DNA of 64,000 nucleotides from Glutamicibacter sp. JC586 (lineage in GTDB: Bacteria > Actinomycetota > Actinomycetes > Actinomycetales > Micrococcaceae). The stretch spans positions 372,001 to 436,000 of the forward strand of contig NZ_VHIN01000022.1 of assembly GCF_009805585.1 (NCBI RefSeq). Direction: 5' to 3'. Position 1 is the stretch's first letter, and the number at the start of each line of letters is the position of its first letter. The translations under genes were made by a program, and so were the position numbers. This document shows positions 19 through 51,395 of the stretch, piece after piece. The notes below the pieces were generated by a model. The model worked only from the letters and a program-made list of their open reading frames with translations, ran no database searches and was not told the origin of the DNA.

Positions 19-930
19 ATGGTTTGGATCGCTATTGCAGCGGCACTATGCAGTGCCTTTTGTCTTGCCTTCGGCGCCCATTTCCAGTCCAAAGCGGTAC
101 GCAAATCTGTGGACGGGCTGGAACTGACGCTGAAGAATGCAGGAAAAGTCGCCAGTAACAAGGTCTGGATGGCCGGTTTGTTGCTGATGATCCTAGGCAT
201 GTCGCTCAACGTCTTTGCTTTAGCCAGCGCGCCACTGACCGTGGTGCAGCCTATCGGCGCTATTGCGCTTGTCGTCACTGCCGTAGTGAATGCCAAAGAA
301 ACCAAGATCTCGATGAATCGTCCTACGGTGATGGCGATACTGAGCTGCATGATCGGCTCTGTGGGTTTTGTGCTGTTGGCGGTCACCGCAACAAATAGCA
401 ACCATGCCGTCACCGAAGAACAGTCTCACTTGATCGAATTGATCCTCGCCGGGGTGGTAGTAATCGTGGGGTTGGCCACGGTGCTGTTCCACCGCAAGCT
501 GGTTGCGATCTTCTTTATTATCGGCGCCGGAGTGCTCTTTGGGTTTGTTGCAGTGTTGGTCCGAACCATTGCGGTCGCGGTGCTGGGCATCGGAAACAGC
601 AACTTCTTGCAGCTTCCATGGATTGCTGGAATCGCCGTGGTGGTCGCTGGCCTACTGGGTTCATATTTTGTGCAAAAGGCCTACTCAAAAGGACCTCCGG
701 AACTTGTTATTGCCGGATTGACGGTTATTGATCCGATCATCGGAATAGCCATCGGAGCAAGTATTTTGGGTGAGTTGCGTCCGGATGTGCCGCTAATTGT
801 TTCGGTGCTGATGGTCGTTGCTGCCGGCTTTGCGATTGTCGGAGTGGTTGCTCTTTCTCGCTACCACCCGGATGTGATCGAGCGTCGGAACCAATCCGAG
901 GCTGAGGAAGAACTGCAAGAGCCCAAATAG
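19..930 (+). CDS. DMT/NIPA-like multispanning transporter
   Basis: Integral membrane protein of 303 residues with about nine hydrophobic segments spread over the whole length and a short charged C-terminal tail rich in Glu. The stretch ASAPLTVVQPIGAIALVV near residue 70 and the matching ELVIAGLTVIDPIIGIAIG near residue 230 look like the two related halves of the drug/metabolite transporter (EamA/NIPA) fold. NIPA proteins are putative magnesium transporters and other DMT members export metabolites; the substrate here cannot be read from sequence. The ATG follows AGAAAGG at a suitable distance, so the gene is complete although it lies at the window edge. It ends about 50 bases before a glycosyltransferase on the same strand, with which it may be co-transcribed. 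Confidence 0.8.
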   Translation: MVWIAIAAALCSAFCLAFGAHFQSKAVRKSVDGLELTLKNAGKVASNKVWMAGLLLMILGMSLNVFALASAPLTVVQPIGAIALVVTAVVNAKETKISMNRPTVMAILSCMIGSVGFVLLAVTATNSNHAVTEEQSHLIELILAGVVVIVGLATVLFHRKLVAIFFIIGAGVLFGFVAVLVRTIAVAVLGIGNSNFLQLPWIAGIAVVVAGLLGSYFVQKAYSKGPPELVIAGLTVIDPIIGIAIGASILGELRPDVPLIVSVLMVVAAGFAIVGVVALSRYHPDVIERRNQSEAEEELQEPK

Positions 931-979
931 ACTAAACCTACAGACTTTTCATCCAACCAAAATTTGTGAACGACTAAGG

Positions 980-2167
980 ATGCCCGTGGCCGAGGAAAAA
1001 CCACTGACCATTGTCATTGCAGCTGACACTTATCCGCCAGACGTCAACGGCGCAGCGATGTTTTGCTATCGGTTAGCTACCGAAATGCACGCCCGTGGAC
1101 ATCGGGTTCATGTACTGGCAGTACGTGGTGACAAGGGGAAGACTTTCACCGAAATTCGCGATGAGGCGATTATTCATCGCCTTGAATCGCATTCGGTTCC
1201 AACCCACGAGTACTTCCGTATCGTATTCCCCTGGGAAGCCAATCGGCAGATCGACAAGCTACTGAACGATATTAAACCTGACGTCATTCACGCACAGAGC
1301 CACTATATGATCGGCCAGCGTGCTATCGGATGGGCCAAGAAAAATAGGGTGCGCTCGGTGGCGACGAATCACTTTATGCCCGAAAATCTAGATCCGTTTC
1401 TTCCCTTCCCACGATGGTTCAAGCGCATCGTTGCGCATAACTCGTGGAAGGACATGGGCAAGATTTTTGGCCGTGCGGATGCAGTGACAACTCCAACTCC
1501 GCTGGCTGCCAAAGCGATGCGCGAACGAGCTAAGCTGATGAACGTCATGCCGTTGTCTAACGGTATTGAAGTGGGCAATTATGAGTTGGCCTCGGGGGAG
1601 CAGATCGTCAAAAACGATTTCCCCACGATTCTCTTTGCCGGTCGCCTGGCCGTTGAGAAGAACATCAACGAGCTCATCGAGGCACTACCGCTGATGACCC
1701 ACGTGCCCGACGCCATTATTGAAATCGTCGGTGGTGGGGAGCAGCGAGTCCACTTGGAGAAAATCGCGGACGAGCTACAGATTCGAGACCGTGTCCGTTT
1801 CCTAGGCCATGTGAGCGACGAGGAACTTCGCCAGGCTTATTTACGGTGTGACGTTTTCTGCCAGCCAGGTACCGCAGAGCTGCAGTCGTTGGTCACCCTT
1901 GAAGCGCTTTCGGCCTCCAAGCCTGTGGTGCTGGCCAACGCGATGGCCCTGCCGCACCTGGTGGACGAGGGCGTGAACGGGTACATGTTCAAGCCAGGTG
2001 ACCGAAAGGATCTAGCTGACAAGCTGGATCGGATTCTGGCCCTGGACGAAACCGAGCGAACCAAGCTCGGTGAAGCGGGGCATCGTAAGGTGATGAATCA
2101 CGCGCAGAAGAAAACTATGAACTCTTTTGAAGCCCTGTACCGAGGTGAAAAGGTCACGACTCACTAA
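980..2167 (+). CDS. GT4-family glycosyltransferase
   Basis: A 395-residue GT-B glycosyltransferase. Visible hallmarks are an N-terminal Rossmann-like start with the glycine-containing acceptor loop (DTYPPDVNGAAMF, residues 16-28), the donor-site stretch FAGRLAVEKN (219-228) and the GT4 signature E-x7-E (E300, E308) in PGTAELQSLVTLEAL. Family members transfer a sugar from a nucleotide-sugar to a lipid or glycan acceptor on the cytoplasmic membrane face. The sequence resembles actinobacterial mannosyl- and glucosyl-transferases of the PimB/MgtA type, which make phosphatidylinositol mannosides or glycosyl-diacylglycerols, but the donor and acceptor remain inference. TAAGGA lies directly before the ATG, so the GTG two codons downstream is an alternative start. 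Confidence 0.85.
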   Translation: MPVAEEKPLTIVIAADTYPPDVNGAAMFCYRLATEMHARGHRVHVLAVRGDKGKTFTEIRDEAIIHRLESHSVPTHEYFRIVFPWEANRQIDKLLNDIKPDVIHAQSHYMIGQRAIGWAKKNRVRSVATNHFMPENLDPFLPFPRWFKRIVAHNSWKDMGKIFGRADAVTTPTPLAAKAMRERAKLMNVMPLSNGIEVGNYELASGEQIVKNDFPTILFAGRLAVEKNINELIEALPLMTHVPDAIIEIVGGGEQRVHLEKIADELQIRDRVRFLGHVSDEELRQAYLRCDVFCQPGTAELQSLVTLEALSASKPVVLANAMALPHLVDEGVNGYMFKPGDRKDLADKLDRILALDETERTKLGEAGHRKVMNHAQKKTMNSFEALYRGEKVTTH

Positions 2168-2265
2168 GTCTTGTGACCGGCACGGGAGCGCCAAATCGGT
2201 GTTTTGGCTAGTGATGCCCTAGAATATTTCGAGTGTGGTTTCGCCGATTGGTGTTGAGCACATGT

Positions 2266-2339
<74 letters not shown>

Positions 2340-2350
2340 CAAATGAATTT

Positions 2351-2384
2351 CGCCCGGTAGCTTGTGTTAACAAGCTACCGGGCG
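2351..2384 (+). terminator. Rho-independent terminator after the tRNA
   Basis: A perfect 14-bp stem (CGCCCGGTAGCTTG pairing with its complement at 2371-2384) closes a six-base loop and is followed by the T-rich tail ATTTCTATTTTT. It starts 11 bases after the tRNA and ends the tRNA transcript. It also lies just beyond the end of the minus-strand gene remnant at 2395. Confidence 0.9.
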
Positions 2385-2394
2385 ATTTCTATTT

Positions 2395-2705
2395 TTAGTC
2401 GGCAGGATCTTTGAACGGACTTTGAACGTGGTGCTGAATAACGCGTGGGTCGGTTTCGGACTTCCTGCCTAAAACTAGATTCTCAAAAGTTGTGTTGGCG
2501 TCCCGCAGTGGTTCAAAGCCCCTTTTTGGATTTCCGGAACGATAAGCCACAATGAATCGGCAAATCAGTCCTGCGATGAACGCTAGACCGAATAGGACGA
2601 ACGGGATGATTCCAAAATTGGGTTTGGTTCCGTCTTGCCAAAATTATAAATAACTCCAAGGATCAAGGCGACGATGCATGCGGTAACGACCAACGCTTTT
2701 CTCAT
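2395..2705 (-). pseudogene. Small two-helix membrane protein broken by a one-base frameshift
   Basis: Two open segments on the minus strand join into one protein of about 103 residues if one T is added to the TTTT run near 2639-2642 (minus-strand context TATAATTTTGGC). The first segment starts at ATG 2705 behind GGAG and gives MRKALVVTACIVALILGVIY. The second, in the next frame, continues as a glycine/proline linker, a second hydrophobic helix (IIPFVLFGLAFIAGLI) and a charged tail ending at TAA 2395. As written, the first frame stops after 39 residues. Both helices and the hydrophilic tail are protein-like, so I infer a recently broken or mis-sequenced gene rather than noise. No function recognised. 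It is the gene downstream of the M23 protein, on the same strand. Confidence 0.6.
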
Positions 2706-2790
2706 AGTCTTCTAGACTCCTTGCTTCCTTTAGTGAAGGATCTTCATCGTACCGAGGGAATAGCATGAAGCACAGGCTGTGCAACATTGC

Positions 2791-3318
2791 TTAGTGGTGC
2801 AACGGCAACAGGATCGATGGCCGCATGTCGCGGATGAGTAGGACCGGGTCAACGTATTCGCCGTTCAATCTCACGCCCCAGTGGATGCACCGCCCAGAGC
2901 AATGAGCGCCGGTGGCCACGGTTCCCACTTGGTCCCCAGCATCGACGATGTCACCCACCATTACCGTGGCGGTGACCGGTTCGATGCTCGTCTTAAAACC
3001 TCCGCCGTGGTCGATTACCACTACCGGTCTATCCACCACTTTTGAGGTGAAAGTGACTTTGCCGCGCTGCGGGGCTAAAACCTTGGCGCCTTCGGACGCT
3101 GCCAGATCAACGCCACGATGGCCAGGTAGCCAGTTTTGGGCAGGCTTATCGAAAGGTTCCAGGATCTTTGGTTCTCCATTCAGCGGCCATCGCCAACCTG
3201 CGGTAGTACTTAGAGCGGCCGGCACCGGGCTTGATGTTGGCGGGCTTGCTGAGGCTGACGACGATATGAAGCTCAACGTCAGCACCAGTGCAAGGTAGAA
3301 AATGCGTTTGGTTTTCAT
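2791..3318 (-). CDS. Secreted M23/LytM-type peptidase-like protein
   Basis: A 175-residue exported protein with a Sec signal peptide (residues 1-24, cleavage near ASA-SPP) followed by a single LytM/peptidase M23 domain. The first zinc motif is present (GHRGVDLA, H67 and D71), as is H104 (VVIDHGGG). At the second motif, where active members have HxH, it reads CIHWGVR, so the first His is C144 and only H146 remains. M23 enzymes cut peptidoglycan cross-bridges, whereas degenerate LytM domains activate amidases; with this substitution a regulatory or weakly active role is possible. The gene is divergent from rpsB, the same position as a LytM-like gene in other actinobacteria (for example Rv2891 in M. 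tuberculosis). Confidence 0.85.
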   Translation of the reverse strand: MKTKRIFYLALVLTLSFISSSASASPPTSSPVPAALSTTAGWRWPLNGEPKILEPFDKPAQNWLPGHRGVDLAASEGAKVLAPQRGKVTFTSKVVDRPVVVIDHGGGFKTSIEPVTATVMVGDIVDAGDQVGTVATGAHCSGRCIHWGVRLNGEYVDPVLLIRDMRPSILLPLHH

Positions 3319-3711
3319 GTAATCACGCTGTGCCTTCAGGTGAGGTAGGAGTATTAGTCGAACGCGAATTGTGGGTAAGTCGGTGGGCTCTAGATCACTG
3401 TTCTCGGTGCCTGCGAGCCCATTGTCTGTAGTACACTTGAATCAGCAGTTTCCTGTCATAGGTGTGTCCAAAATTGGATTCGTCTGATGGGGGATTGACT
3501 TCGCGTATGAGTTTCCATGGCCACTTCGGCTGTGGCCTGAGATTCCAGTGGTCCGAGAGAATCGGTGGATCGAAGGCGAGATGCCAAGCATCTTCGGCAC
3601 GCATACTAGGGCGGGTATCCACAATGGCTATCTGCATCAACCCAAACAAACAAGAGCAGTTACCGCGGGCGCACCTGTGCCCGGTCCGCCACTGCTGAAA
3701 GGAGTTGCGAC
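3319..3711. promoter_or_regulatory. Divergent intergenic region between the M23 gene and rpsB
   Basis: This 393-base stretch must hold the rpsB promoter and leader and the promoter of the M23 gene. I see no convincing -35/-10 pair and no terminator-like hairpin. The last bases before rpsB carry the Shine-Dalgarno GAAAGGAG. An uncertain minus-strand reading frame lies inside it and is listed separately. Confidence 0.5.
3395..3637 (-). CDS. Possible small orphan protein upstream of the M23 gene
   Basis: An open frame of 80 codons from ATG 3637 to TGA 3395 on the M23 strand. Its translation is hydrophilic, Trp- and Pro-rich (for example [19 protein letters not shown]) and more protein-like than the other frames here. 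It has no clear Shine-Dalgarno sequence, no recognised domain and no strong bias toward G/C in the third codon position. It overlaps the rpsB upstream region. I regard it as more likely non-coding than coding. Confidence 0.2.
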
Positions 3712-4536
3712 ATGCCAGTCGTAACCATGCGAGAGCTGCTTGATAGCGGCGTTCACTTCGGCCACCAGACCCGTCGCTGGAACCCAAAGATGAAGCGTTT
3801 CATCTTCACCGAGCGCAACGGCATCTACATCATTGACCTGCAGCAGTCGCTGTCGTTCATCGACCGTGCTTACGAGTTCGTGAAGCAGACTGTTGCTCAC
3901 GGCGGTAGCGTACTGTTCGTTGGTACCAAGAAGCAGGCTCAGGAATCCATCGCTGAGCAGGCTAACCGTGTTGGCCAGCCATACGTGAACCAGCGTTGGC
4001 TCGGCGGTATGCTGACCAACTTCCAGACCGTTTCCAAGCGCGTTCAGCGCATGAAGGAACTGGAAGAGATCAACTTCGAGGACGTTGCTGGCTCCGGTCA
4101 CACCAAGAAGGAACTTCTGCTGCTCAAGCGCGAGCTGACCAAGCTGCAGAACAACCTCGGCGGTATCCGTAACCTGACCCGCACCCCTTCGGCTATCTGG
4201 ATCGTTGACACCAAGAAGGAACACTTGGCTATCGACGAAGCTCAGAAGCTGGGCATCCCAGTTGTTGCTATCTTGGACACCAACTGCGATCCAGACGAAG
4301 TTACCTACCCAATCCCAGGCAACGACGACGCAATCCGCTCCGTCAACCTGCTGACCCGCGTTGTTGCTGACGCTGTGGCCGAAGGCCTCATCGCCAAGAA
4401 CAACAAGGCTGCAGGCAAGTCTGAGGGTGCTGCTGAGCCACTGGCTGAGTGGGAGCGCGAACTGCTTGAGGGCGAGAAGGCTAAGGCTGAAGCTCCTGCT
4501 GCAGAAGCTGCAACCGAGGCACCAGAAGCCAAGTAG
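3712..4536 (+). CDS. rpsB: 30S ribosomal protein S2
   Basis: A 274-residue S2 protein: the start [20 protein letters not shown] and the internal [13 protein letters not shown] and [13 protein letters not shown] motifs are diagnostic. S2 joins the 30S subunit late and is needed with S1 for mRNA binding. The last 40 residues form an Ala/Glu-rich tail ([21 protein letters not shown]), longer than in enterobacterial S2 and common in actinobacteria. The ATG has a strong upstream GAAAGGAG. It is the first gene of the usual rpsB-tsf pair; codon use is strongly biased, as expected for a highly expressed gene. Confidence 0.98.
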
Positions 4537-40311: not shown

Positions 40312-41478
40312 TTGACTTCGGTCAGCCTAGGCATGCCGGCAGGCCCACCGCCGGTCCTTACCCCACGTCGAAAGACCCGTCAGTTCCAGGTTGGTTCTGT
40401 GGGCGTCGGTTCCGATTCACCGATTTCGGTTCAGTCGATGACGACCACCAAGACTCACGACATCAATGCAACGCTGCAGCAGATCGCTGAGTTGACCGCG
40501 GCTGGTTGCGATATCGTTCGTGTTGCGTGCCCTACGGATAAAGACGCAGAAGCGCTGAAGATCATCGCGATGAAATCGCAGATCCCAGTGATCGCCGATA
40601 TTCACTTCCAGCCAAAGTACGTCTTTGCTGCGATTGAAGCCGGTTGTGGCGCTGTGCGTGTGAATCCGGGCAATATCCGCCAGTTCGACGACCAGGTCAA
40701 GGAAATCGCTCAGGCGGCCAAGGACCACGGCACTTCGATCCGTATCGGAGTCAACGCCGGTTCCTTGGACCGCCGCCTTCTGCAAAAGTACGGCAAGGCT
40801 ACTCCTGAAGCTTTGGTTGAGTCGGCCGTTTGGGAAGCTTCCTTGTTCGAAGAGCACGGATTCCATGACTTCAAGATTTCGGTCAAGCACAATGACCCAG
40901 TGATCATGGTTCGAGCATATGAACTTCTGGCAGAACGTGGTGACTGGCCACTGCACTTGGGTGTAACTGAGGCGGGTCCTGCCTTCCAGGGCACTATCAA
41001 GTCCGCTACCGCATTTGGTGCTTTGCTCTCCAAGGGCATCGGCGACACCATCCGCGTATCGCTCTCAGCGCCTCCTGTTGAGGAAGTTAAGGTTGGCAAC
41101 CAGATTCTGGAATCGCTGAACCTGCGTCCTCGCAAGCTCGATATCGTTTCTTGCCCATCGTGTGGACGCGCTCAGGTGGATGTTTACACCTTGGCTGAGC
41201 AGGTCACCGCAGGGCTTGAAGGAATGAAGGCTCCGCTGCGAGTTGCGGTCATGGGCTGTGTCGTCAACGGACCCGGTGAAGCGCGCGACGCTGACCTTGG
41301 TGTAGCATCAGGCAACGGCAAGGGACAGATTTTCGTCAAGGGCGAAGTCATCAAGACCGTTGCCGAGGATCAGATCGTTGAGACTCTGATTGAAGAAGCT
41401 AACCGCCTGGCTGAGGAAATGGGACTAAGCGATGACGAGAATCCTACCTCGGGTTCTCCCGTGGTCTCCGTCAGCTAA
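40312..41478 (+). CDS. ispG: 4-hydroxy-3-methylbut-2-enyl diphosphate synthase
   Basis: A 388-residue IspG (GcpE) enzyme, the sixth step of the MEP pathway, converting MEcPP to HMBPP with a [4Fe-4S] cluster. Cluster ligands appear in [12 protein letters not shown] and [12 protein letters not shown], and the TIM barrel start reads [15 protein letters not shown]. The start is TTG 40312 with GGAGG six bases upstream, since no ATG fits. Its 3' end overlaps the next gene by 47 bases in a different frame. Confidence 0.97.
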
Positions 41479-42328
41479 GGAGAATCGACGAGGCGAGGCG
41501 ACGGCGCCGCGGACTCTGGGCCGTCGTGATACGACGGCCCTCATTGAGCTACTCGACCGTGACCCGGTGGTCAATATCTTTACGCGTTCGCAGGTATCCC
41601 TGCATCGTTCTGCCGTTCCAGATGGCTTCGCGCATATCGTGGGTTTGGACGGTAATGAGGGGCTGAACGCTGCGTGCTGGATGGGTGCCAATGTTGCGCC
41701 AACGGCTATGACAGAAGACCAAGCACAAAAGGTTGCTGTCCATGCTTTGGATTCACGGCAACGTTTTGCCTCGGTCTTCGGGCCCGCTCAGTCGGTTTTG
41801 GCCATGCACGATGTACTTCGCCAAGGCCCACAATCGATCTTTGACGTGCGAGAAAATCAGCCGTTGCTGACCATCTCAAAGCTTCCCGAAGGTGTGGAAC
41901 GAAACCCGATACGAGCAGCGAAAATCCACGAATTTGATCTGGTGCTTCCTGCTAGTGCTGCCATGTTTGAAGAAGAGCTCGGCTATTCACCTCTGGAAAA
42001 TGGCGGTAGCTTTTACCGCAATCGGGTGCGTCAGCTGATTCGTGACGGGCATACCGTCATTGACTGCGATGACCACGGCGAGGTGATCTTCAAGGCTGAT
42101 TTGGGAACCGTTACCAATGAAGTAGTCCAAATCCAAGGAGTCTGGGTTAACCCTCGATACCGGGGGCTGGGCTTGGCCTCGGGCTATATGAGCTCTACGG
42201 TTCAGTATGCATTGGGATTTGCGCCTCTTGTAAGTCTCTACGTCAACGACTTCAACGTGCCGGCACTGAAAACTTATCAACGAATTGGTTTTGAGCAGGT
42301 TGGCACCTTCGCGACGATCTTGTTCTAA
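41432..42328 (+). CDS. GNAT acetyltransferase with DUF4081-type N-terminal domain
   Basis: A 298-residue protein with an N-terminal DUF4081-like region (about 25-150) and a C-terminal GNAT domain ([19 protein letters not shown] is the acetyl-CoA motif, then [19 protein letters not shown]). This pair directly after ispG is a conserved actinobacterial association; the substrate is unknown. ATG 41432 lies inside the end of ispG, giving a 47-base overlap. If translation starts later (for example at a GTG or TTG near 41530), the overlap would vanish, but the N-terminal frame looks coding. Confidence 0.85.
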
Positions 42329-42420: not shown

Positions 42421-42729
42421 CTACTTCGAGAGAATCTGTTCTACGTCGTCGAGGATCTTGTTGGCTCCAAGAATTCCGATTCCAACCATCCAAGTTTCAT
42501 CGGCAACTTCGTGGAGTTTTTCATTTTTCACGGAGTCAAGGGACTTCCATAGACCGGTGACTTTCTCCATGGTAGTTGCTTTGGGATCCCCACCTGAGTT
42601 GGTGTAGAAGACCACGTCGCCATCGATCTTTTCGCCAACTTGCTGAGCGCGTTCGTCGAGATCGGAGATCAGGTTTTCCATTTTGTCGCTCTCACCGACT
42701 GCCGCGGTGGTGATGCGAGCCTGTTCCGT
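42421..42729 (-). pseudogene. C-terminal remnant of an iron-siderophore binding protein (FecB/FepB family)
   Basis: The open frame from TGA 42732 to the stop at 42421 gives about 102 residues with the C-terminal lobe of a class III siderophore-binding protein: ARITTAAVGESDKMENLI, VVFYTNSGGDPKATT, LWKSLDSVKNEKLHEVADE and a final helix ILDDVEQILSK. The N-terminal half with the lipoprotein signal is missing. It stops abruptly where the FecCD remnant on the other strand begins, as if one deletion removed both 5' ends. No start codon with a ribosome site exists (ATG 42681 is internal), so it is not expected to be functional. Confidence 0.8.
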
Positions 42730-42734
42730 TCACA

Positions 42735-43123
42735 GTGCTGAACAATTGTCTGTTGACCCAGGTTTTTGTCCCGTCTGCGCAAGTGGCTCAGACATGGTTG
42801 GTCGGATCTTTACGGGGCAGAGGGTGGGTCGAAATTCCATGGCTCAGCGTGGCAGTCTGGGTTGTCCTAGTGGTCCAGTTGGCTTGCGACCGTGATCTGT
42901 GCCGGTCCAATTGGTTTTGTTGCGCTGGTTGCTCCGCATATTACTTACGCGATGAGCAGATCTCGCAATCTCGTGGTTTGTGCGCTCACCGGTGGCATGC
43001 TGCTCATGCTCAGCGACTTGGTGGCTCAATATGCACTGCCCGTGGTCCTGCCCGTGGGTATGGTGACCAATCGTCTTTGGCGGTGGTTTATTCCTGTGGC
43101 TGTTATCCAGGCGGGGCGGGTAG
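42735..43123 (+). pseudogene. Remnant of a FecCD-family siderophore permease
   Basis: Three frames together read as the end of a FecCD permease. Frame one gives TWLVGSLRGRGWVEIPWLS (the usual W-x2-G-S-L region). After an internal loss of roughly 50 residues, frame two gives CAGPIGFVALVAPHITYAMS and LSDLVAQYALPVVLPVGMVT. A further one-base shift near 43069 gives VFGGGLFLWLLSRRGG and a TAG at 43121. AGPIGFVALVAPH is the family's most conserved motif. The N-terminal half is absent. Two frameshifts and a deletion make this clearly dead. Confidence 0.82.
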
Positions 43124-43747
43124 GTGGCTGAAACTATGGAACGACGAAGGACTAAGCTTCGCGATCAACACTGCCATGCAAAGAGACTGACGCAACTCCG
43201 GGTTCACGCGGTGAGGTTCATCAACGATGAATTCTCATGACTTCGACGACTCGTTGGTGCTGCGCTTCCCGGTGGAATCAGTAACCGCGGCGGTTTCTCA
43301 CGATGAGGATGAATCCGCAGTATCCGTCACGCGCGAGTACACAGTTCAGTCCTTGGATCCTGAAAATAGTCGCTTGAGTGTGGATTTTTTAGTGCATGAG
43401 CATGGGGTAGCGTCGCAGTGGTCTCAACGTGCCAGAGCCCAGCGGTCAGCAGATTTCATCGTGAAGTAGGAAATACGCCGGGGCATAAAGTGTTGATTGA
43501 CTCGAACCCGCCTCCCTCAATGGTTGATTATTCAGGGAGCCGTAAAATCACCATCCTCCATGTTGATTCTTCGCCTGAACAATTGATTGAGGCGAGTGAA
43601 CTAGCGCAGACGGGCAGAGCCGAAACAACTTTTATCTGGATTGTGGGAGAGGCTAGCTGGGCCGGAGAGCTTCGACGGACGCTGATCCGGGACTATGGAG
43701 TCGACAAAGACAACATTCAGTTCACCGGGTATTGGAAGTCGGCCTAG
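43124..43747 (+). pseudogene. Remnant of a siderophore-interacting FAD reductase (SIP/ViuB family)
   Basis: GTG 43124 directly follows the FecCD stop and opens MAETMERRRTKLRDQH, then reaches a stop after VRFINDEFS. The next frame continues HDFDDSLVLRFP, REYTVQSLDPENSRLSVDFL and GVASQWSQRAR, the FAD-binding half. A third frame gives GNTPGHKVLIDSN and the C-terminal TFIWIVGEASWAGELRRTL with FTGYWKSA, the NAD(P)H half and terminal motif of SIP proteins. The middle of the protein is shortened. SIPs reduce ferric siderophores after import, so the neighbouring remnants fit one uptake cassette. Confidence 0.78.
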
Positions 43748-43855
43748 TGCTGCACGTAGCTCAACGGGTTCAGATACGGGAGGACTCATTCTTAATGGAG
43801 CCGATACGATCTCATAGACTCTAGAGAGCAGTGAACCGTAGGGATGGGAGATTTT

Positions 43856-44584
43856 GTGGCTAGAGTTTTCGGGTCTGCGAAGCTGGTGGGCGCTGCTTTG
43901 CTCCTGGGTTCCTTGCTCCTGGGCGGCTGCAGTCAGGTAGAGCCTGTCCCTGAACCGAGCGCCAAAAAATCAGTGAATCTCGACAGTAGCGAATTGCAAA
44001 GAATCTTGACGCAATTTACTTCTTCAGAAGACAACCCGAAGGTGCTTTCAGATCAGAAGCTTCGCGCCAGCATCCCTCTAGCTCAACAGTGGCTCGAAAG
44101 TGCAAAGATCAAACCAAGTAAATGTGGTGTGACTTTTGCTCAACCAGTGAGCGGGCAGCTAGGGACAGCGACGCTTGGTGCGGTGGAACTTAAAGACAGC
44201 TATCTCATGGTTGCGATCTTTCACAACCCAGATGTCTTGAAAAAGCAATGGTCGGCGATGAACGATCTCTTTAACGAGTGCTCCCGGTATTCGGTAGCCA
44301 CCGACGGGAAATCTCGTGCCTATCACTTAGCTGCTCAACAATTGAATTCTGATGCTGAGCACGACCAAAGTTACGTAGTCACTAGCAGTGACGGAACAAC
44401 GTCTCAGCAACAGTTCGTAGTTCATTCCGTTGATGCAAATGTGTTGATTGGAATCCAACAGCCTGTCACTCAGACTCAAACAGCGGAGCAAATTGAATCT
44501 GCGACTGGCATAATCAACAACTTGTTGCGGGAACTACAGCACGCAGGTCAGGTTTCGGCGACAGCTCCGTCAGGAAATAATTAG
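43856..44584 (+). CDS. Lipoprotein, first of three tandem paralogues
   Basis: A 242-residue lipoprotein: signal helix VGAALLLGSLLLGGC with the lipidated Cys at 25, then a soluble domain. It shares with the next two genes an opening helix (SSELQRILTQF), a VL strand, the motif IKPSKC (C90) and a second Cys 52 residues on (ECSRYS, C142), then a strand pair and a closing helix. The Cys pair probably forms a disulfide. Function unknown; the layout recalls the extracytoplasmic PknH-type sensor and LppH-like lipoproteins of actinobacteria, a guess only. GTG 43856 with GGGAG is preferred over ATG 43844. Codons are more A/T-rich than in the core genes. Confidence 0.8.
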   Translation: MARVFGSAKLVGAALLLGSLLLGGCSQVEPVPEPSAKKSVNLDSSELQRILTQFTSSEDNPKVLSDQKLRASIPLAQQWLESAKIKPSKCGVTFAQPVSGQLGTATLGAVELKDSYLMVAIFHNPDVLKKQWSAMNDLFNECSRYSVATDGKSRAYHLAAQQLNSDAEHDQSYVVTSSDGTTSQQQFVVHSVDANVLIGIQQPVTQTQTAEQIESATGIINNLLRELQHAGQVSATAPSGNN

Positions 44585-44594
44585 AGGAATCTTA

Positions 44595-45341
44595 ATGAAC
44601 AAACTTCGAATTCTGTCGCTCGTTACCGTGGTGGCTTCCATGGCCTTGGTCGGTTGCTCTGAGGGATCCCAGCAGTCACAAACTAGCGATTCCTCGCAAT
44701 CCTCTGATTCGGTCCAGAGCCCGAGCGAAAACCTAACAAACCAGCAAAACTTGAGCGCGGAACAAGTCAAAAGTGTGGCTTCAAAATTGCTTTCCAGCGA
44801 CCAATCGGTACAGGTTATTGGCAACGAACAGATGCAACCTCAACTCAAGGCCGCCAAAGACGCCACTGCGCCTTCAGGCATTAAGCCGGAAAAGTGTGCA
44901 GATTTGAACGCCAAGTATTCGGTAACTGATCTCACCGGAACGGTAGCGGCTACGGCGACTAGCAGTTCGGAACAAATGGGCAAGGTGGTCCAGATATTTT
45001 CAGTGACCGATGCAGCTACCAAGAAGAACATTTCGAATGCTTTGGCATTTGATGATCTTGCAGACTGCGACAAGGTCACGATTGAACAAGATGGCGAAAA
45101 TCTGACTGCACAACGTCAGATTTTGCCGATGAATGTGAAAGCAGAACAAGCTTTGACCATGTCCACTATTCTCGATGCCGGTGGTGGACAGAAGCTGAGT
45201 TCAATCGCCGTTCAAGCGATGGACGGAAACAATTTTGTTCTGGTTACGCTGCAGACCGGTTCGATGCAACCGGCCGAGCTTGCCACCGAAGCTGTAGAGC
45301 TGACGGATCAAGCGTTTGATGAAATCAAATCGGTGCAATAG
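44595..45341 (+). CDS. Lipoprotein, second tandem paralogue
   Basis: A 248-residue lipoprotein with lipobox LVGC (Cys 21), a long Ser/Gln/Asp linker (about 22-50), then the shared domain: LSAEQVKSVASKLL, VQVIGNEQM, IKPEKCADL (C101) and LADCDKVTIE (C158), ending in FVLVTLQTGS and a final helix. It starts ten bases after the first paralogue ends, behind AGAGGAA, so the two form an operon. The pattern of two Cys 57 apart is the same as in the third copy. Function unknown; secreted and membrane-anchored. Confidence 0.82.
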   Translation: MNKLRILSLVTVVASMALVGCSEGSQQSQTSDSSQSSDSVQSPSENLTNQQNLSAEQVKSVASKLLSSDQSVQVIGNEQMQPQLKAAKDATAPSGIKPEKCADLNAKYSVTDLTGTVAATATSSSEQMGKVVQIFSVTDAATKKNISNALAFDDLADCDKVTIEQDGENLTAQRQILPMNVKAEQALTMSTILDAGGGQKLSSIAVQAMDGNNFVLVTLQTGSMQPAELATEAVELTDQAFDEIKSVQ

Positions 45342-45419
45342 TTCTGGTAATTACTTTTATTTCGAACGTGTTGTGTAATACTGGGTATTGCATTTCATCA
45401 CCGACGTGAGGATTACATC

Positions 45420-46139
45420 ATGAAGAAGCAAGCTCTGTGGGTGCTACCGATCGCGGCAGCATTCGCTTTGACCGGTTGTGGCGGCGCCAGCGACAACTCT
45501 GCAGGTAGCAACGGTGGCGATGAAGCCAAAGCGCTGACTGCCGAACAGACCACCACCGTCGTTAAATCATTGGTTGGAGACGACTCCGATGCAAAGGTCT
45601 TGGACAGCGAGACGCTCAAGTCAGCACTGCCGGATTCCAAGAAGCTGATTGAGCAGATGAATATCAAGCCGGAGAAGTGCGCCGAACTGGTCACCCAGCA
45701 GGGTACCGAGGATCTTGATGGAATTAATATGGCTGTTGCCATGATTACCAGTGGCGGTACCGCATCGACGACGTATTCAGTCGCTGGTTATGAGGACACG
45801 GCCAAACTAGACAAGACCAAGGAAATGGCCGAAAAGAAAGACATGCAGGGCTGTGACAAGTTCACCATGTCCATGTCTGGACAAGAGATCTCCGCATCAG
45901 CCAAGATCCTCGATGCGTCCTCTGATGCAGACACCACTATCGCTACCCAGACCAGCATGACGGTCAACGGCCAAGAGTTCCCTGGTGGTGCATACCAGAT
46001 TCAGGGACTCGTTGGAAATAACGCTGTCGTCATCGCCTACTCGGGTGGAGACGGAAGCGAGTCCGAGGCAGATGTACTCAAGAAGCTCACCACCGAGCTG
46101 AACAAGGGCGTCGCCAAGATTAAGGAAACTGCGAAGTAG
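45420..46139 (+). CDS. Lipoprotein, third tandem paralogue
   Basis: A 239-residue lipoprotein (lipobox LTGC, Cys 20) with a Gly/Ser/Asp linker, LTAEQTTTVVKSLVG, AKVLDSETLKSAL, IKPEKCAEL (C87), and MQGCDKFTMS (C145), closing with a Lys-rich helix. It is more G/C-rich and better codon-adapted than the two before it. The 78-base gap upstream contains AATAC-TGG-GTATT (45377-45389), an inverted repeat with a fair -10-like TAATACT, so it may have its own promoter. The ribosome site is GACGTGAGGA. Function unknown. Confidence 0.83.
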   Translation: MKKQALWVLPIAAAFALTGCGGASDNSAGSNGGDEAKALTAEQTTTVVKSLVGDDSDAKVLDSETLKSALPDSKKLIEQMNIKPEKCAELVTQQGTEDLDGINMAVAMITSGGTASTTYSVAGYEDTAKLDKTKEMAEKKDMQGCDKFTMSMSGQEISASAKILDASSDADTTIATQTSMTVNGQEFPGGAYQIQGLVGNNAVVIAYSGGDGSESEADVLKKLTTELNKGVAKIKETAK

Positions 46140-46259: not shown

Positions 46260-47429
46260 ATGACTGTGGAGCAACGTGGCCCGCGGGGGCTAATTCAGGC
46301 AGCCTTAACTGCGGGCGAAGACCCGGCGGCTAAAGCGCGGAGCCTCAAATCCTTGCATCAATCATGGGCTGAGGGAACACGCATTGAAGAAGTCGTGCGC
46401 CCGGTGGTTGCGCGGTCGTGGTCACGAGCCGGGTCGCTAGGCAAAAACATCGTGCCATTGGACGCTTCCGCGGTGCGCGAAAAGCGCGAGTCCAATGAGC
46501 AGCTTGTTGATTTGGTTGATCTGTTCAAGGATCGCCTCCTGTCCATGGCGACTCAAGCCGGAAACCAGTTGGTGATTTCTGACGAGCAAGGATACGTGCT
46601 GTGGGTACTGGGACCATCGACCATCCGACGTCGAAGTGACGGAATAGGATTCGTTTCAGGAGCCAGATGGCGCGAAAGTGATGTCGGGACCAACGGGATC
46701 GGCGCGGCCATGGCGGAGATGCTACCTGTGCAGATCTTTGGCCCAGAGCATGCCCGTGAAGAGCAACATTCTTGGGTGTGTACCTCAGCGCCTGTTGTGA
46801 ACCCGGCGACCACTGCGTTGGTGGGTACGGTGACTCTGGCCGGATCGTTTCGAACGGCACACCCTCACTCGCTTGCTCTAGTCTCCTCCGTTGCCAAAGA
46901 AGCTGAATCCCTATTGCTTGCGGAGCACAAGCTAAAAATGCAACGGCTCGAGCTCACGAGCGAATTGCCTCAAGGGGAATTTGTCCTGGTAGATTCGCAC
47001 GGTTCGGTTGCGGCAAGCCGGGGTTTTAGTACCGGCGGTAAGGTACATCTGCCGCCGGGTCTAGCCGAAGGGCACGTCTGGGTCGATGCATTGGGTCCGG
47101 TTGATGCTCTGCGTACCGTAGGTGGTTGGATTTTCACCCGGACGAAAGAAGGTATGAGTCTCCAACTGTGCTTCGGTCCTCAGCGACAGGTGATGATTCA
47201 TGCTGCCACGGGAACGTCTCTCGTAGTTTTGGGGGAGAAGCACTGGCAAATCATCGAGTTATTGTCTCGACATACCCACGGAGTGGATGCCGAACAATTG
47301 CGATTATTGTGGCCACCGTCCACTCCACAGGTAACCATCAGGGCGGAGATTTCTAGGCTCCGAGCCAAACTGCCCGGAGTCATTGCGTCGCGTCCATATC
47401 GATTGGTTGTTCCTATCGTTAATCAATAG
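46260..47429 (+). CDS. GAF-domain transcriptional regulator (AcoR-like, without AAA+ domain)
   Basis: A 389-residue regulator. The N-terminal half matches the sensor part of AcoR/DhaR activators: VRPVVARSWSRAG near 47, then a GAF domain (ISDEQGYVLWVLG to ESDVGTNGIGAAMAE, LVGTVTLAGSFRTAHPHSL). The sigma-54 AAA+ module is absent. The C-terminal 70 residues form a winged-helix-like region (LVVLGEKHWQIIELLSRH then VTIRAEISRLRAKL). GAF-only AcoR relatives are common next to oxidoreductases in actinobacteria. It lies 125 bases before a flavin monooxygenase on the same strand, which it probably activates. Confidence 0.85.
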   Translation: MTVEQRGPRGLIQAALTAGEDPAAKARSLKSLHQSWAEGTRIEEVVRPVVARSWSRAGSLGKNIVPLDASAVREKRESNEQLVDLVDLFKDRLLSMATQAGNQLVISDEQGYVLWVLGPSTIRRRSDGIGFVSGARWRESDVGTNGIGAAMAEMLPVQIFGPEHAREEQHSWVCTSAPVVNPATTALVGTVTLAGSFRTAHPHSLALVSSVAKEAESLLLAEHKLKMQRLELTSELPQGEFVLVDSHGSVAASRGFSTGGKVHLPPGLAEGHVWVDALGPVDALRTVGGWIFTRTKEGMSLQLCFGPQRQVMIHAATGTSLVVLGEKHWQIIELLSRHTHGVDAEQLRLLWPPSTPQVTIRAEISRLRAKLPGVIASRPYRLVVPIVNQ

Positions 47430-47494: not shown

Positions 47495-47557
47495 TATTCT
47501 TACTTCAAGGCGGTATGAACGCCGTGAATTTTTCCGGACTTCGAACGAATTGAAGTG

Positions 47558-49354
47558 ATGAAGATGTCAAGCAATGAAGCACTGTCCCAAGCCCAAGAAT
47601 GGGGCAAAGCACTTGAAGTAGCACTGGGCGCCGGCGATGTCGAACAGGCCATCGAACTATTTGGTGAAGAGTCCTATTGGCGAGATCTCACCGCCTTGAC
47701 CTGGAATCTGCATACCTCCGAAGGACGCGAAGACATTGCCAAGATGCTCTTGGGCGTTGACCGCGGCTCCTGGCCTAGGAATATCCAAGTGACCAGTGCG
47801 GAAGAAAACGACGGGGTTATCGAAGCGTGGTACACCTTCGACAATGATGCCATCCAAGGTCTGGGTCTCTTCAGGCTGCGTCAGGGGAAGTGCTGGACTT
47901 TATTGAGCACAGCTCAGTCGTTGGTCGAGTACCCTGAACCAGCAGGGAAACTTCGCGAACGCGGCGCCGAACATGGTTCATCCATGAGCAAAGAAAACTG
48001 GCTGGATCGACGCACCGAACAGCAGCTATCCATAGGAATTACCGAGCAGCCCTACACCCTGATCATTGGAGGCGGCCAGGGAGGCATCGGGCTGGCTGCC
48101 CGACTCAAGCGCATGGGCGTGCCTGCCCTTGTCATCGACAAACATCCGCGGCCAGGAGATCAATGGCGCTCGCGTTACCACTCACTGGCTCTCCATGACC
48201 CGGTTTGGTACGACCATATGCCCTACATTGACTTTCCCGATCACTGGCCGGTGTTTACCCCGAAGGACAAAATGGGGGACTGGCTTGAAAGCTATACCAA
48301 GCTCATGGAACTGGATTACTGGTCCTTGACGGAAGCGAAGAGTGCACGCCAAGATCCAGAAGGTGAAGGATGGATTGTAGAGGTGGTGCGTGATGGTGTA
48401 CCGGTGACACTGCGCCCAACACAGCTTGTCCTGGCTACCGGGATGTCAGGTGTTCCCAATATTCCGCACTACCCGGGCGCCGAGATTTTCACCGGTGAAC
48501 AAAACCACTCATCCACCCACCCCGGCGGCGAGCGTTACGCGGGCAAAAACGTTGTGGTAATTGGGGCCAACAACTCTGCCCATGACATTTGCGCAGACCT
48601 GGTTCAAAACGGTGCCAAACCAACGATGGTGCAACGTTCGAGCACGCACATCGTCCGGTCGGAATCGTTGATGAAGTACGTGTTGGGTGGCCTCTATTCG
48701 GAAGAGGCTTTGGAAGCAGGAATTGACCACAATAAAGCGGACCTGATCTTCGCATCGATTCCCTATAAGGTCTTGCCTGATTTCCATAGGCCAATTTTTG
48801 ACAAGATTCGTGAAGTTGACGCCGAGTTCTATCAGTCCCTGGAAGATGTGGGCTTCGACTTGGACTTCGGTGACGATGATTCTGGACTATTTTTGAAGTA
48901 CCTGCGTCGTGGTTCGGGCTATTACATCAATATTGGTGCCAGCGAGTTAGTGGCCGACGGATCCATAGCACTGGCCAAGGGCGAAGTTTCTCACCTGAGT
49001 GAAAATGCCGTGGTACTCGCCGATGGCACACAACTGCCAGCAGATGCAGTGGTCTACGCGACCGGCTACGGTTCAATGAACGGGTGGGCTGCCAAGCTCA
49101 TCTCCCAAGACGTTGCCGACGAAGTAGGCAAGTGCTGGGGATTTGGTTCGGGAACCACCAAAGATCCGGGCCCATGGCAAGGGGAACTACGAAACATGTG
49201 GAAGCCGACCAAGGTGAAGAACCTATGGTTCCACGGTGGCAACCTGCACCAGTCGCGGCACTATTCCAAGTACTTGGGGTTGCAACTCAAGGCGCGTTAT
49301 GAGGGGCTAGCCACCCCGGTGTACGCGCTCGCCGAGACGTTCCATCAGTCTTAA
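47558..49354 (+). CDS. Flavin-containing monooxygenase with N-terminal NTF2-like domain
   Basis: A 598-residue NAD(P)H/FAD-dependent monooxygenase. Residues 1-130 resemble a SnoaL/NTF2-like fold (EQAIELFGEESYWRDLTALTW). The FAD site is LIIGGGQGGIGLAARLKRMG near 165-185, the FMO-type motif is FTGEQNHSS, and the NADPH site is VVVIGANNSAHDICADL. Such enzymes insert oxygen at nitrogen, sulfur or ketone carbonyls (Baeyer-Villiger type). The substrate is unknown. Start choice among GTG 47555, ATG 47558 and ATG 47564 is uncertain because no good ribosome site is visible. Confidence 0.9.
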   Translation: MKMSSNEALSQAQEWGKALEVALGAGDVEQAIELFGEESYWRDLTALTWNLHTSEGREDIAKMLLGVDRGSWPRNIQVTSAEENDGVIEAWYTFDNDAIQGLGLFRLRQGKCWTLLSTAQSLVEYPEPAGKLRERGAEHGSSMSKENWLDRRTEQQLSIGITEQPYTLIIGGGQGGIGLAARLKRMGVPALVIDKHPRPGDQWRSRYHSLALHDPVWYDHMPYIDFPDHWPVFTPKDKMGDWLESYTKLMELDYWSLTEAKSARQDPEGEGWIVEVVRDGVPVTLRPTQLVLATGMSGVPNIPHYPGAEIFTGEQNHSSTHPGGERYAGKNVVVIGANNSAHDICADLVQNGAKPTMVQRSSTHIVRSESLMKYVLGGLYSEEALEAGIDHNKADLIFASIPYKVLPDFHRPIFDKIREVDAEFYQSLEDVGFDLDFGDDDSGLFLKYLRRGSGYYINIGASELVADGSIALAKGEVSHLSENAVVLADGTQLPADAVVYATGYGSMNGWAAKLISQDVADEVGKCWGFGSGTTKDPGPWQGELRNMWKPTKVKNLWFHGGNLHQSRHYSKYLGLQLKARYEGLATPVYALAETFHQS

Positions 49355-49607: not shown

Positions 49608-51395
49608 GTGGTTTTGAAGCTTTCCACTACCTTCTTGCGCACCCTGCGTGAAGATCCGGTTGACGCCGAAGTCGCCAGCCACAAGCTGTTGGTTCGCGCT
49701 GGTTATATCCGCCGCGCAGCACCGGGTATCTACACGTGGTTGCCGCTGGGCTTGAAAGTTCTTGCGCGCGTTGAAGCTATTGTGCGCGAAGAAATGAACG
49801 CTATCGGTGGCCAGGAAGTTCACTTCCCGGCGCTACTTCCTCGCGAGCCCTACGAACAGACCGGTCGCTGGACCGAATATGGTGACGGGCTGTTCCGACT
49901 GAAGGACCGCAAAGACGCGGACTACCTCTTGGCACCAACCCACGAGGAAATGTTCACCCTGCTGGTCAAGGACCTGTACAACTCGTACAAGGATCTTCCG
50001 GTGTATCTGTACCAGATCCAGAACAAGTACCGCGATGAAGCGCGTCCACGCGCGGGCCTGCTACGCGGACGTGAATTCATCATGAAGGACTCGTACTCTT
50101 TCAATATCGATGATGAGGGTCTGGACGAGGCTTACATGGCCCACCGCGGCGCATACCTGAAGATCTTTGAGCGTTTGGGACTAGAAGTTGTTCCAGTCTT
50201 CGCTCAGGCTGGCGCCATGGGTGGTTCCAAATCGGAAGAATTCCTCCACCCAACCCCAATTGGCGAAGACACCTTCGTGCGTTCGCCAGGCGGATATGCG
50301 GCCAACGTGGAAGCAGTGACCACGGTGGTGCCTGAGGAAATTGATTTCACCAATGCGCCATCATTTGAAGTCATCGACACCCCGGATACCCCAACCATCG
50401 CCACCTTGGTGGCCGCAGCCAACGAACTGCGACCACGTCAGGACCGTGCTTGGGAAGCCAAAGACACCCTGAAGAACGTGGTGCTTGCGGTCATCGATCC
50501 AGAAGGCAACCGCCACCTAGTTGTTCTGGGCATTCCCGGCGACCGCCAGGTTGACGAGAAGCGTTTGGAAGCAACCGTTGGCATCGCACTAGGCATCAGT
50601 GGCGAAGTTGGCGTGGAACAGGCTACCGCCGAAGACTTAAAGAGCCACCCTGAGATCGTCACCGGGTACCTCGGCCCAGCATTGGGTATGGAGAAGCAGC
50701 TACTGGGTAAGGACACCGAGAGTGGCATCACCTACCTGGTTGATCCCCGTGTAGTTTCGGGCACCACCTGGATCACCGGTGCCAATGAAAAGGGCAAGCA
50801 CGTCTTCGGATTGGTCGCTGGCCGAGACTTCGCCGTTGATGGAACCATCGAGGCAGTCAATGTTCTCGAAGGTGACCCAGCACCGGACGGATCCGGTCCA
50901 CTGCGCACCGAGCGCGGTATCGAAATGGGACACATCTTCCAGCTGGGACGCAAGTACGCCGAAGCACTTGACCTGAGGGTTCTTGACCAGAACGGTAAGC
51001 TGACCGTGGTCACCATGGGTTCCTACGGTGTTGGCGTGACCCGTGCGGTGGCGGCTTTGGCCGAAACCTACCACGACGACAACGGCTTGACTTGGCCAAA
51101 GCAGATCGCACCGGCACAGATTCACATTGTGGTGACCGGTAAGGGCCCAGAGTTGCTTGAAGCTGCTGAGAAGTTGGCGAATGAGTTTGAGGCTGCCGGG
51201 CAAGACGTGATTCTTGATGACCGTCCAAAGCTCTCTGCCGGCGTGAAGTTCTCGGACGCAGAACTGATCGGCGTGCCAACCATCGTTGTGGTTGGTCGAG
51301 GTTTGGCCGACGGCGTTGTGGAAGTCAAGGACCGGGCTACCGGTGAGCGTCAAGACGTCAAGGTCGAAGACGTGGTCGCCCAGCTCAGCGCGTAA
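49608..51395 (+). CDS. proS: Prolyl-tRNA synthetase (bacterial type)
   Basis: A 595-residue class II synthetase. Motif 2 appears in [19 protein letters not shown], motif 3 in [16 protein letters not shown], and the central 230-390 insertion is the editing (INS/YbaK-like) domain that removes mischarged alanine, so it is the long bacterial form. The C-terminal anticodon domain ends in [13 protein letters not shown] 49608 gives [20 protein letters not shown], the usual actinobacterial N-terminus, with AGGA further upstream. proS precedes the rimP-nusA-infB cluster here as in mycobacteria. Confidence 0.97.

Follow-up and report, generated by a model that had tools for sequence, protein, structure and literature searches.

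Positions 43856 to 46139 of the window, the 64,000-nucleotide stretch of Glutamicibacter sp. JC586 DNA analyzed here, encode three tandem lipoproteins, named P1, P2, and P3, which are probably membrane-anchored, stand-alone ligand-binding domains of the PknH_C fold, each predicted to contain one structural disulfide. They belong to a family that is real, old, and conserved.

The lipoprotein array and its genomic slot

The three genes lie on the forward strand as co-directional, stand-alone ORFs of 239–248 residues: P1 (43856..44584), P2 (44595..45341), and P3 (45420..46139). The P1 reading frame is open from an ATG (43844-44584) and its probable start is the GTG at 43856, upstream of which a purine-rich stretch can be read in the sequence. 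The proteins share one layout composed of a signal peptide, a lipobox (LGGC, LVGC, and LTGC in P1, P2, and P3, respectively), and a polar linker that leads into a domain of about 190–200 residues. The codons of the lipid-anchor cysteines are at 43928 (P1), 44655 (P2), and 45477 (P3), and those of the paired cysteines at 44123 and 44279 in P1, 44895 and 45066 in P2, and 45678 and 45852 in P3, all of them checked in the sequence. The paired cysteines are residues 87 and 145 of P3 and, with numbering from the ATG at 43844, residues 94 and 146 of P1. The first cysteine of the pair closes an IKP-[SE]-KC motif present in all three proteins, and the second follows 52, 57, and 58 residues on, in the context CSR in P1 and CDK in P2 and P3. 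The anchor cysteine, the I-K-P-x-K-C motif, and the second cysteine are, with other positions, invariant among P1–P3. The lipobox, the linker, the IKP-x-KC motif, and the second cysteine 52–58 residues further, all listed in the initial annotation, were thus read in each of the three translations. The description of the genes as three tandem paralogs with an invariant cysteine pair also holds: pairwise E values are 3e-16 for P2/P3, 8e-7 for P1/P3, and 1e-6 for P1/P2, hence at most 1e-6, and each protein has the lipobox and both cysteines. As judged from these sequence comparisons, the homology of P1–P3 exceeds chance. A search of the same genome returned, beyond the three proteins, only three rows (E 0.011 to 0.14), which cover the first 45 profile positions and so the signal-peptide part only. 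A promoter and terminator scan gave no excess over shuffles.

Upstream of the array are ispG (40312-41478, forward strand) and a GNAT-like gene (41432-42328, forward strand) that overlaps it; downstream is proS (49608..51395, forward strand), all three named from their translations. Two forward-strand genes inserted between the array and proS, encoding a GAF-domain protein (46260-47429) and a flavin monooxygenase-like protein (47555-49354), are variable: they occur in 7 of 51 loci, in one of which (L047) they lie beyond proS, past a TauE-like gene. The borders of the slot are conserved. The order GNAT–lipoproteins–proS was found on one strand in 35 of 40 Micrococcaceae loci, chosen among the strongest P3 matches, and in all 11 loci from named organisms, which come partly from the same genomes; ispG precedes the GNAT gene in 45 of those 46 loci. 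Among the genomes negative with the family profile, 20 of 91 were examined at this site: in 12 the slot is empty, with the GNAT gene and proS 69–295 bases apart; in three it holds low-scoring two-cysteine lipoproteins, with spacings of 54–57 (two loci) and 80 (one); in three it spans 2.2–2.8 kb with nothing recognised; and in two the GNAT gene is outside the stretch. The array therefore occupies a slot of the core region that houses zero to three genes and is not an accessory island, so that the "accessory segment" of the initial annotation gives way to the conserved ispG–GNAT–proS setting of the 35 loci. No kinase or other partner is consistently adjacent in the contexts examined, including those of copies away from proS, and a signaling role is thus without support.

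Distribution, divergence, and selection

Ninety members of the family were assembled from the window and the 40 loci, as 96 HMM matches minus six false ones dropped by eye, of which four were read as sequences. Both cysteine columns are C in 90 of the 90 members, with a spacing of 52–60, and exactly three cysteines remain after trimming by script in 86. An automatic test for P-x-x-C followed by a cysteine 52–60 residues on was positive for 89 members; among them L058 (5794), like the sole failure, L072 (4998), has S-P-C at the true site, and P-x-x-C is truly present in 88. The only invariant columns of the family are the anchor cysteine, P, C, and C. Because full-length profiles caught unrelated lipoproteins through the signal peptide, a domain-only alignment, named A7, was adopted, with 86 members drawn from the same genomes that were later searched.

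With P3 alone as the query, 71 of 197 Micrococcaceae genomes matched at E≤0.001, including the 12 listed for the genus. At E≤1e-5, the A7 profile matched 106 of the 197 genomes, which represent 24 of 32 genera; among the 12 genus members, 11 have three matches and one (G157) has a single match, and the family copy number ranges from 0 to 4 per genome. The named relatives nearest to this genome include Arthrobacter sp. S41, Arthrobacter sp. NIO-1057, and Glutamicibacter soli, nicotianae, and uratoxydans. A search of 297 genomes from the wider order gave matches at E≤0.001 in 40, of which 14 belong to the Micrococcaceae, 23 to a family termed f6 (from a single genus, g37), and three, one each, to three further families. 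The NCBIfam matches looked at covered the signal-peptide part or were far under the cut-off. Three members stand out by their topology or neighbors: at L152 (4923-5732) an apparent N-terminal membrane helix replaces the lipobox, a topology closer to PknH or TiME; at L073 (5865-8240) a family member adjoins a secretory lipase; and at L156 (1840-6478) another adjoins a proteasomal ATPase and a Pup ligase.

The f6 relatives have a shared neighborhood of their own. In the seven of the 23 f6 genomes whose neighborhoods were examined, an esterase-family cluster is found at six loci (L146 4262-6690, L147–L150, and L154), and in three loci the lipoprotein gene overlaps the cluster by 4 bases. At the one locus annotated with Pfam (L146), an esterase (PF00756) lies upstream and genes for a TPP-enzyme, an MR_MLE protein, an enoyl-CoA hydratase, and an AMP-binding protein lie around; from their domain content, these surroundings look like men genes of a menaquinone-biosynthesis cluster.

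From the 86 A7 rows, 63 were used for a tree, built by a quick method with SH-aLRT support only and with long branches flagged, in which P1, P2, and P3 fall into separate groups. The P1 proteins of the genus join the first-position copies of another genus, g23 (support 100), and P2 and P3 form one genus-only group (support 100), within which support is 91 for P3 and 96 for the ten closest P2 rows. G127 and G075 have third copies that appear as long branches beside P2. The split between P1 and P2/P3 looks older than the genus, in keeping with the earlier view that the family was expanded some time ago, and P1, P2, and P3 are old orthologue groups. The end branch of the window P1 (43976-44581) measures 0.48, compared with 0.24 and 0.13 in its nearest orthologues, and P1 thus seems to evolve faster here.

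P2 and P3 are under purifying selection. Their dN/dS ratios between the window and G169 are 0.19 and 0.09, respectively, and the ratio for P1, whose synonymous sites are saturated in that comparison, is 0.12 between G169 and G142; as synonymous sites approach or reach saturation, all these values are rough. At L093 (5765-6348), L094 (6022-6528), and L012 (from G191), the P3 gene is split, cut short, or broken by a stop codon, with P1 and P2 open; G191, G. protophormiae, and G. ardleyensis carry such an interrupted or truncated P3.

Predicted fold and relationship to the PknH sensor domain

AlphaFold (AF2) models of P1 and P3 were computed from 34-row alignments of the window proteins and their named relatives and reached pLDDT values of 90.9 and 91.6, respectively, with a pTM of 0.85 in both cases. 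A Foldseek search with the P3 model returned 4TMD (E 5.3e-6), 4ESQ (E 6.2e-5), and the TiME entry 7CU8 (E 7.5e-5) with a probability of 1.00. Seven chains pass E≤0.001, and all are of mycobacterial proteins: five of TiME, 4ESQ (the PknH sensor), and 4TMD; TM-scores by query length are only 0.46–0.55, with an r.m.s. deviation of 5–6. Against 4ESQ in VIA-align, the P3 model gives a Z of 13.5 and an r.m.s. deviation of 3.3 on 175 residues, and the P1 model a Z of 13.5 and an r.m.s. deviation of 3.2 on 168 residues. The lists of both models are headed by 4ESQ, 7CU8, 7CU9, and 4TMD, with 165–177 residues aligned; the Z values of the three entries other than 4ESQ are 11.8–13.3 for P3 and 11.6–12.1 for P1, and after these four the score drops to 7.4 (P3) or 8.6 (P1). 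The lower fold neighbors, at Z 5 to 8.6, are PsbP, DcrB, profilin, T6SS immunity proteins, and START-like proteins, and these values are within or near the range that the tool describes as usual when a model has no clear match. The modeled fold of P1 and P3 is thus of the PknH-sensor type.

Among the leading entries, the M. tuberculosis PknH sensor (PF14032, PDB 4ESQ) is the best VIA match of both models. The TiME protein, or Rv3705c (PDB 7CU8 and 7CU9), has the same fold, with a Z of 12.9–13.3 for P3. The M. smegmatis orthologue of Rv0999 (4TMD), titled "putative uncharacterized protein", follows at Z 11.8 (P3) and 11.6 (P1), with approximately 10% identity in the structural alignments; an HMM alignment to it, weak at E 0.066, sets P-x-x-C over P-x-x-C.

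The link to PknH_C can also be followed in sequence, although P1–P3 themselves are below the curated cut-offs of 27 bits for PF14032 (PknH_C) and 26.2 bits for PF18702 (DUF5642). PF14032 gives no row for P1–P3 at E≤1 and no match in their genome at E≤0.1; for PF18702 all three are sub-threshold, P3 showing a weak match of 18.1 bits. Across the 197 Micrococcaceae genomes, the PF18702 cut-off is passed in none and that of PF14032 in eight, and five of these eight matches are genes of proS-adjacent arrays in genus g23 (G190, 33.2 bits; G111, 30.3; G156, 28.9; G141, 28.4; and G050, 27.3); a repeat on two of the g23 proteins gave 32.8 and 28.6 bits. The profile search that the initial annotation had proposed against PF14032 was therefore negative for P1–P3 and positive for their g23 array paralogs. 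When 87 members were scanned singly at E≤0.1, eight matched PF14032 and four DUF5642. PDB sequence searches with single proteins returned nothing useful.

Over the phylum, PF14032 matched 31 times at E≤1e-5, in four genomes of a single genus out of 246 searched, and the 26 strongest of these domains served as the PknH_C comparison set. Profile–profile alignment of the family with PknH_C scored 33.1 (P 2.2e-4, HH-suite probability 45%), compared with at most 15.5 for 40 column shuffles and 8.3 for the reversed profile; a bridging subset of 15 members raised the score to 38.9 and the probability to 78%. In the profile alignment, both family cysteine columns are in register with the first cysteine pair of PknH_C, which is present in 26 of the 26 domains compared with a spacing of 61–68. 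A direct HMM alignment to 4ESQ, weak at E 0.13, puts the second cysteine on chain residue 113, which is Cys545 in the entry numbering. We take the disulfides of 4ESQ to be PknH 482–545 and 587–604. By analogy with PknH, the two cysteines of each lipoprotein would be adjacent in the folded domain. The second PknH_C pair (17 or 18 residues apart) is missing from 6 of the 26 domains and is thus not universal; P1–P3 have no further cysteine, and their family has no counterpart of it. PknH further differs in that its domain, with the second pair (587, 604), is carried on a Ser/Thr kinase, whereas P1–P3 are stand-alone lipoproteins with one pair and sub-threshold PF14032 scores.

The likeness to the outer sensor domain of PknH noted in the initial annotation is therefore borne out by the predicted fold of both models, the PF14032 scores of the g23 paralogs, and the aligned cysteine pair. 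The likeness to LppH-type lipoproteins, proposed at the same time, follows from it because these share the PknH domain: PMC4118811 names LpqQ, LprH, LppH, and LpqA as mycobacterial lipoproteins with a PknH-like domain, and P1–P3 are likened to them by this description.

Possible functions of the lipoproteins

In the reading that we consider probable, the acylated N-terminal cysteine and the flexible linker would hold a PknH_C-fold domain on the outside of the cell membrane, and the two remaining cysteines would form the disulfide common to the fold family, equivalent to PknH Cys482–Cys545. In the P3 model, one of the paired cysteines lies in the third helix and the other immediately precedes the strand at 128–133, so that a bond between them would pin the helix to the sheet and would most likely be structural. 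The extracytoplasmic domains would then bind a small molecule or a lipid of the envelope, as receptors or carriers, and binding specificity would have diverged between the paralogs. We infer the bond, the location, and ligand binding, the last because the PknH domain is reported with a conserved cleft: according to PMC4118811 and PMC3601408, the PknH sensor has two intramolecular disulfides and a cleft whose ligand is unknown, as was its natural ligand at the time of the 2012 review (PMC3601408). The few residues that the paralogs share beyond the core would suit different ligands and fit a scaffold too; since only the anchor cysteine, P, C, and C are invariant, a scaffold fits as well as a receptor. 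Two different placements adjoining isoprenoid genes, the ispG slot in Micrococcaceae and the men-like cluster of f6, suggest a further reading, which we regard as unlikely: that the fold of the PknH sensor serves in the envelope to receive or carry isoprenoid lipids, of the polyprenyl phosphate or menaquinone type, and arose in Actinobacteria independently of the mycomembrane.

TiME-like oligomers are improbable; in such assemblies, the lipoproteins would make rings or tubes through which molecules cross the cell wall, as is reported for mycobacterial TiME (Rv3705c), which has this fold. The TiME fold is one of the nearest (Z 13.3 for P3 and 12.1 for P1), and three co-directional paralogs could make a hetero-oligomer; however, the copy number varies between genomes, down to none, and to our knowledge the Micrococcaceae have no mycomembrane to cross. 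P1–P3 moreover have a lipobox in place of the N-terminal membrane helix that the TiME pore requires (PMC11434571).

We consider it quite improbable that the cysteine pair opens and closes with the redox state of the envelope. Its presence in every family member would suit such a sensor, but the same pair recurs in all the PknH_C domains compared and presumably corresponds to the disulfide of the solved PknH domain, and cysteines 52–60 residues apart do not make a CxxC motif. The redox-sensing role suggested in the initial annotation thus has no positive evidence in its favor, the pair being common to the whole fold family.

A lipid or protein carrier of the LpqN or PsbP type, with only a general fold likeness to PknH, is very improbable: LpqN (6E5D) reaches Z 6.7 with P1 and CyanoP 7.4 with P3, but these scores are in the common no-clear-match range of the tool and well under 13.5, LpqN is absent from the best 50 VIA rows for P3, and its sequence match spans the signal peptide and linker only.

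A relation to iron or siderophores is the least probable reading and is largely refuted by synteny, for the decayed siderophore-uptake cassette directly upstream (42421..43747, between the GNAT gene and P1, named from translation and outside the lipoprotein system) recurs in only one of 22 related loci, compared with at least one lipoprotein gene in all 22. These loci (L037–L047 and L085–L095) come from partly shared genomes, L095 being from another genus and L047 holding a single copy. The cassette had rightly been called dead: its fragments (42421-43747) resemble pieces of a siderophore substrate-binding protein, of a permease, and of a siderophore-interacting protein, whereas at the corresponding site of the one related locus with the cassette, L086 of Arthrobacter sp. 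NIO-1057 (463-4279), the ORFs are unbroken, with 328, 355, 330, and 267 residues. It is a local insertion, and the lipoproteins show no conserved association with iron uptake.

In the open-licence literature, the PknH-like domain was by title mycobacterial only, PknH together with Arthrobacter led to kinase classification only, a Glutamicibacter lipoprotein near proS gave by title unrelated matches only, and no literature was found for DUF5642, the search covering some of the family names. The three lipoproteins of this Arthrobacter-like bacterium, with their predicted PknH sensor fold and its cysteine pair, suggest that the fold also occurs outside mycobacteria. The reading of P1–P3 as tethered PknH_C-fold domains would thereby extend the range of a fold described in mycobacteria to bacteria that lack a mycomembrane, and the conserved slot of zero to three genes, together with species in which one copy is broken, would offer a simple, mycomembrane-free setting for finding the ligand of the fold.
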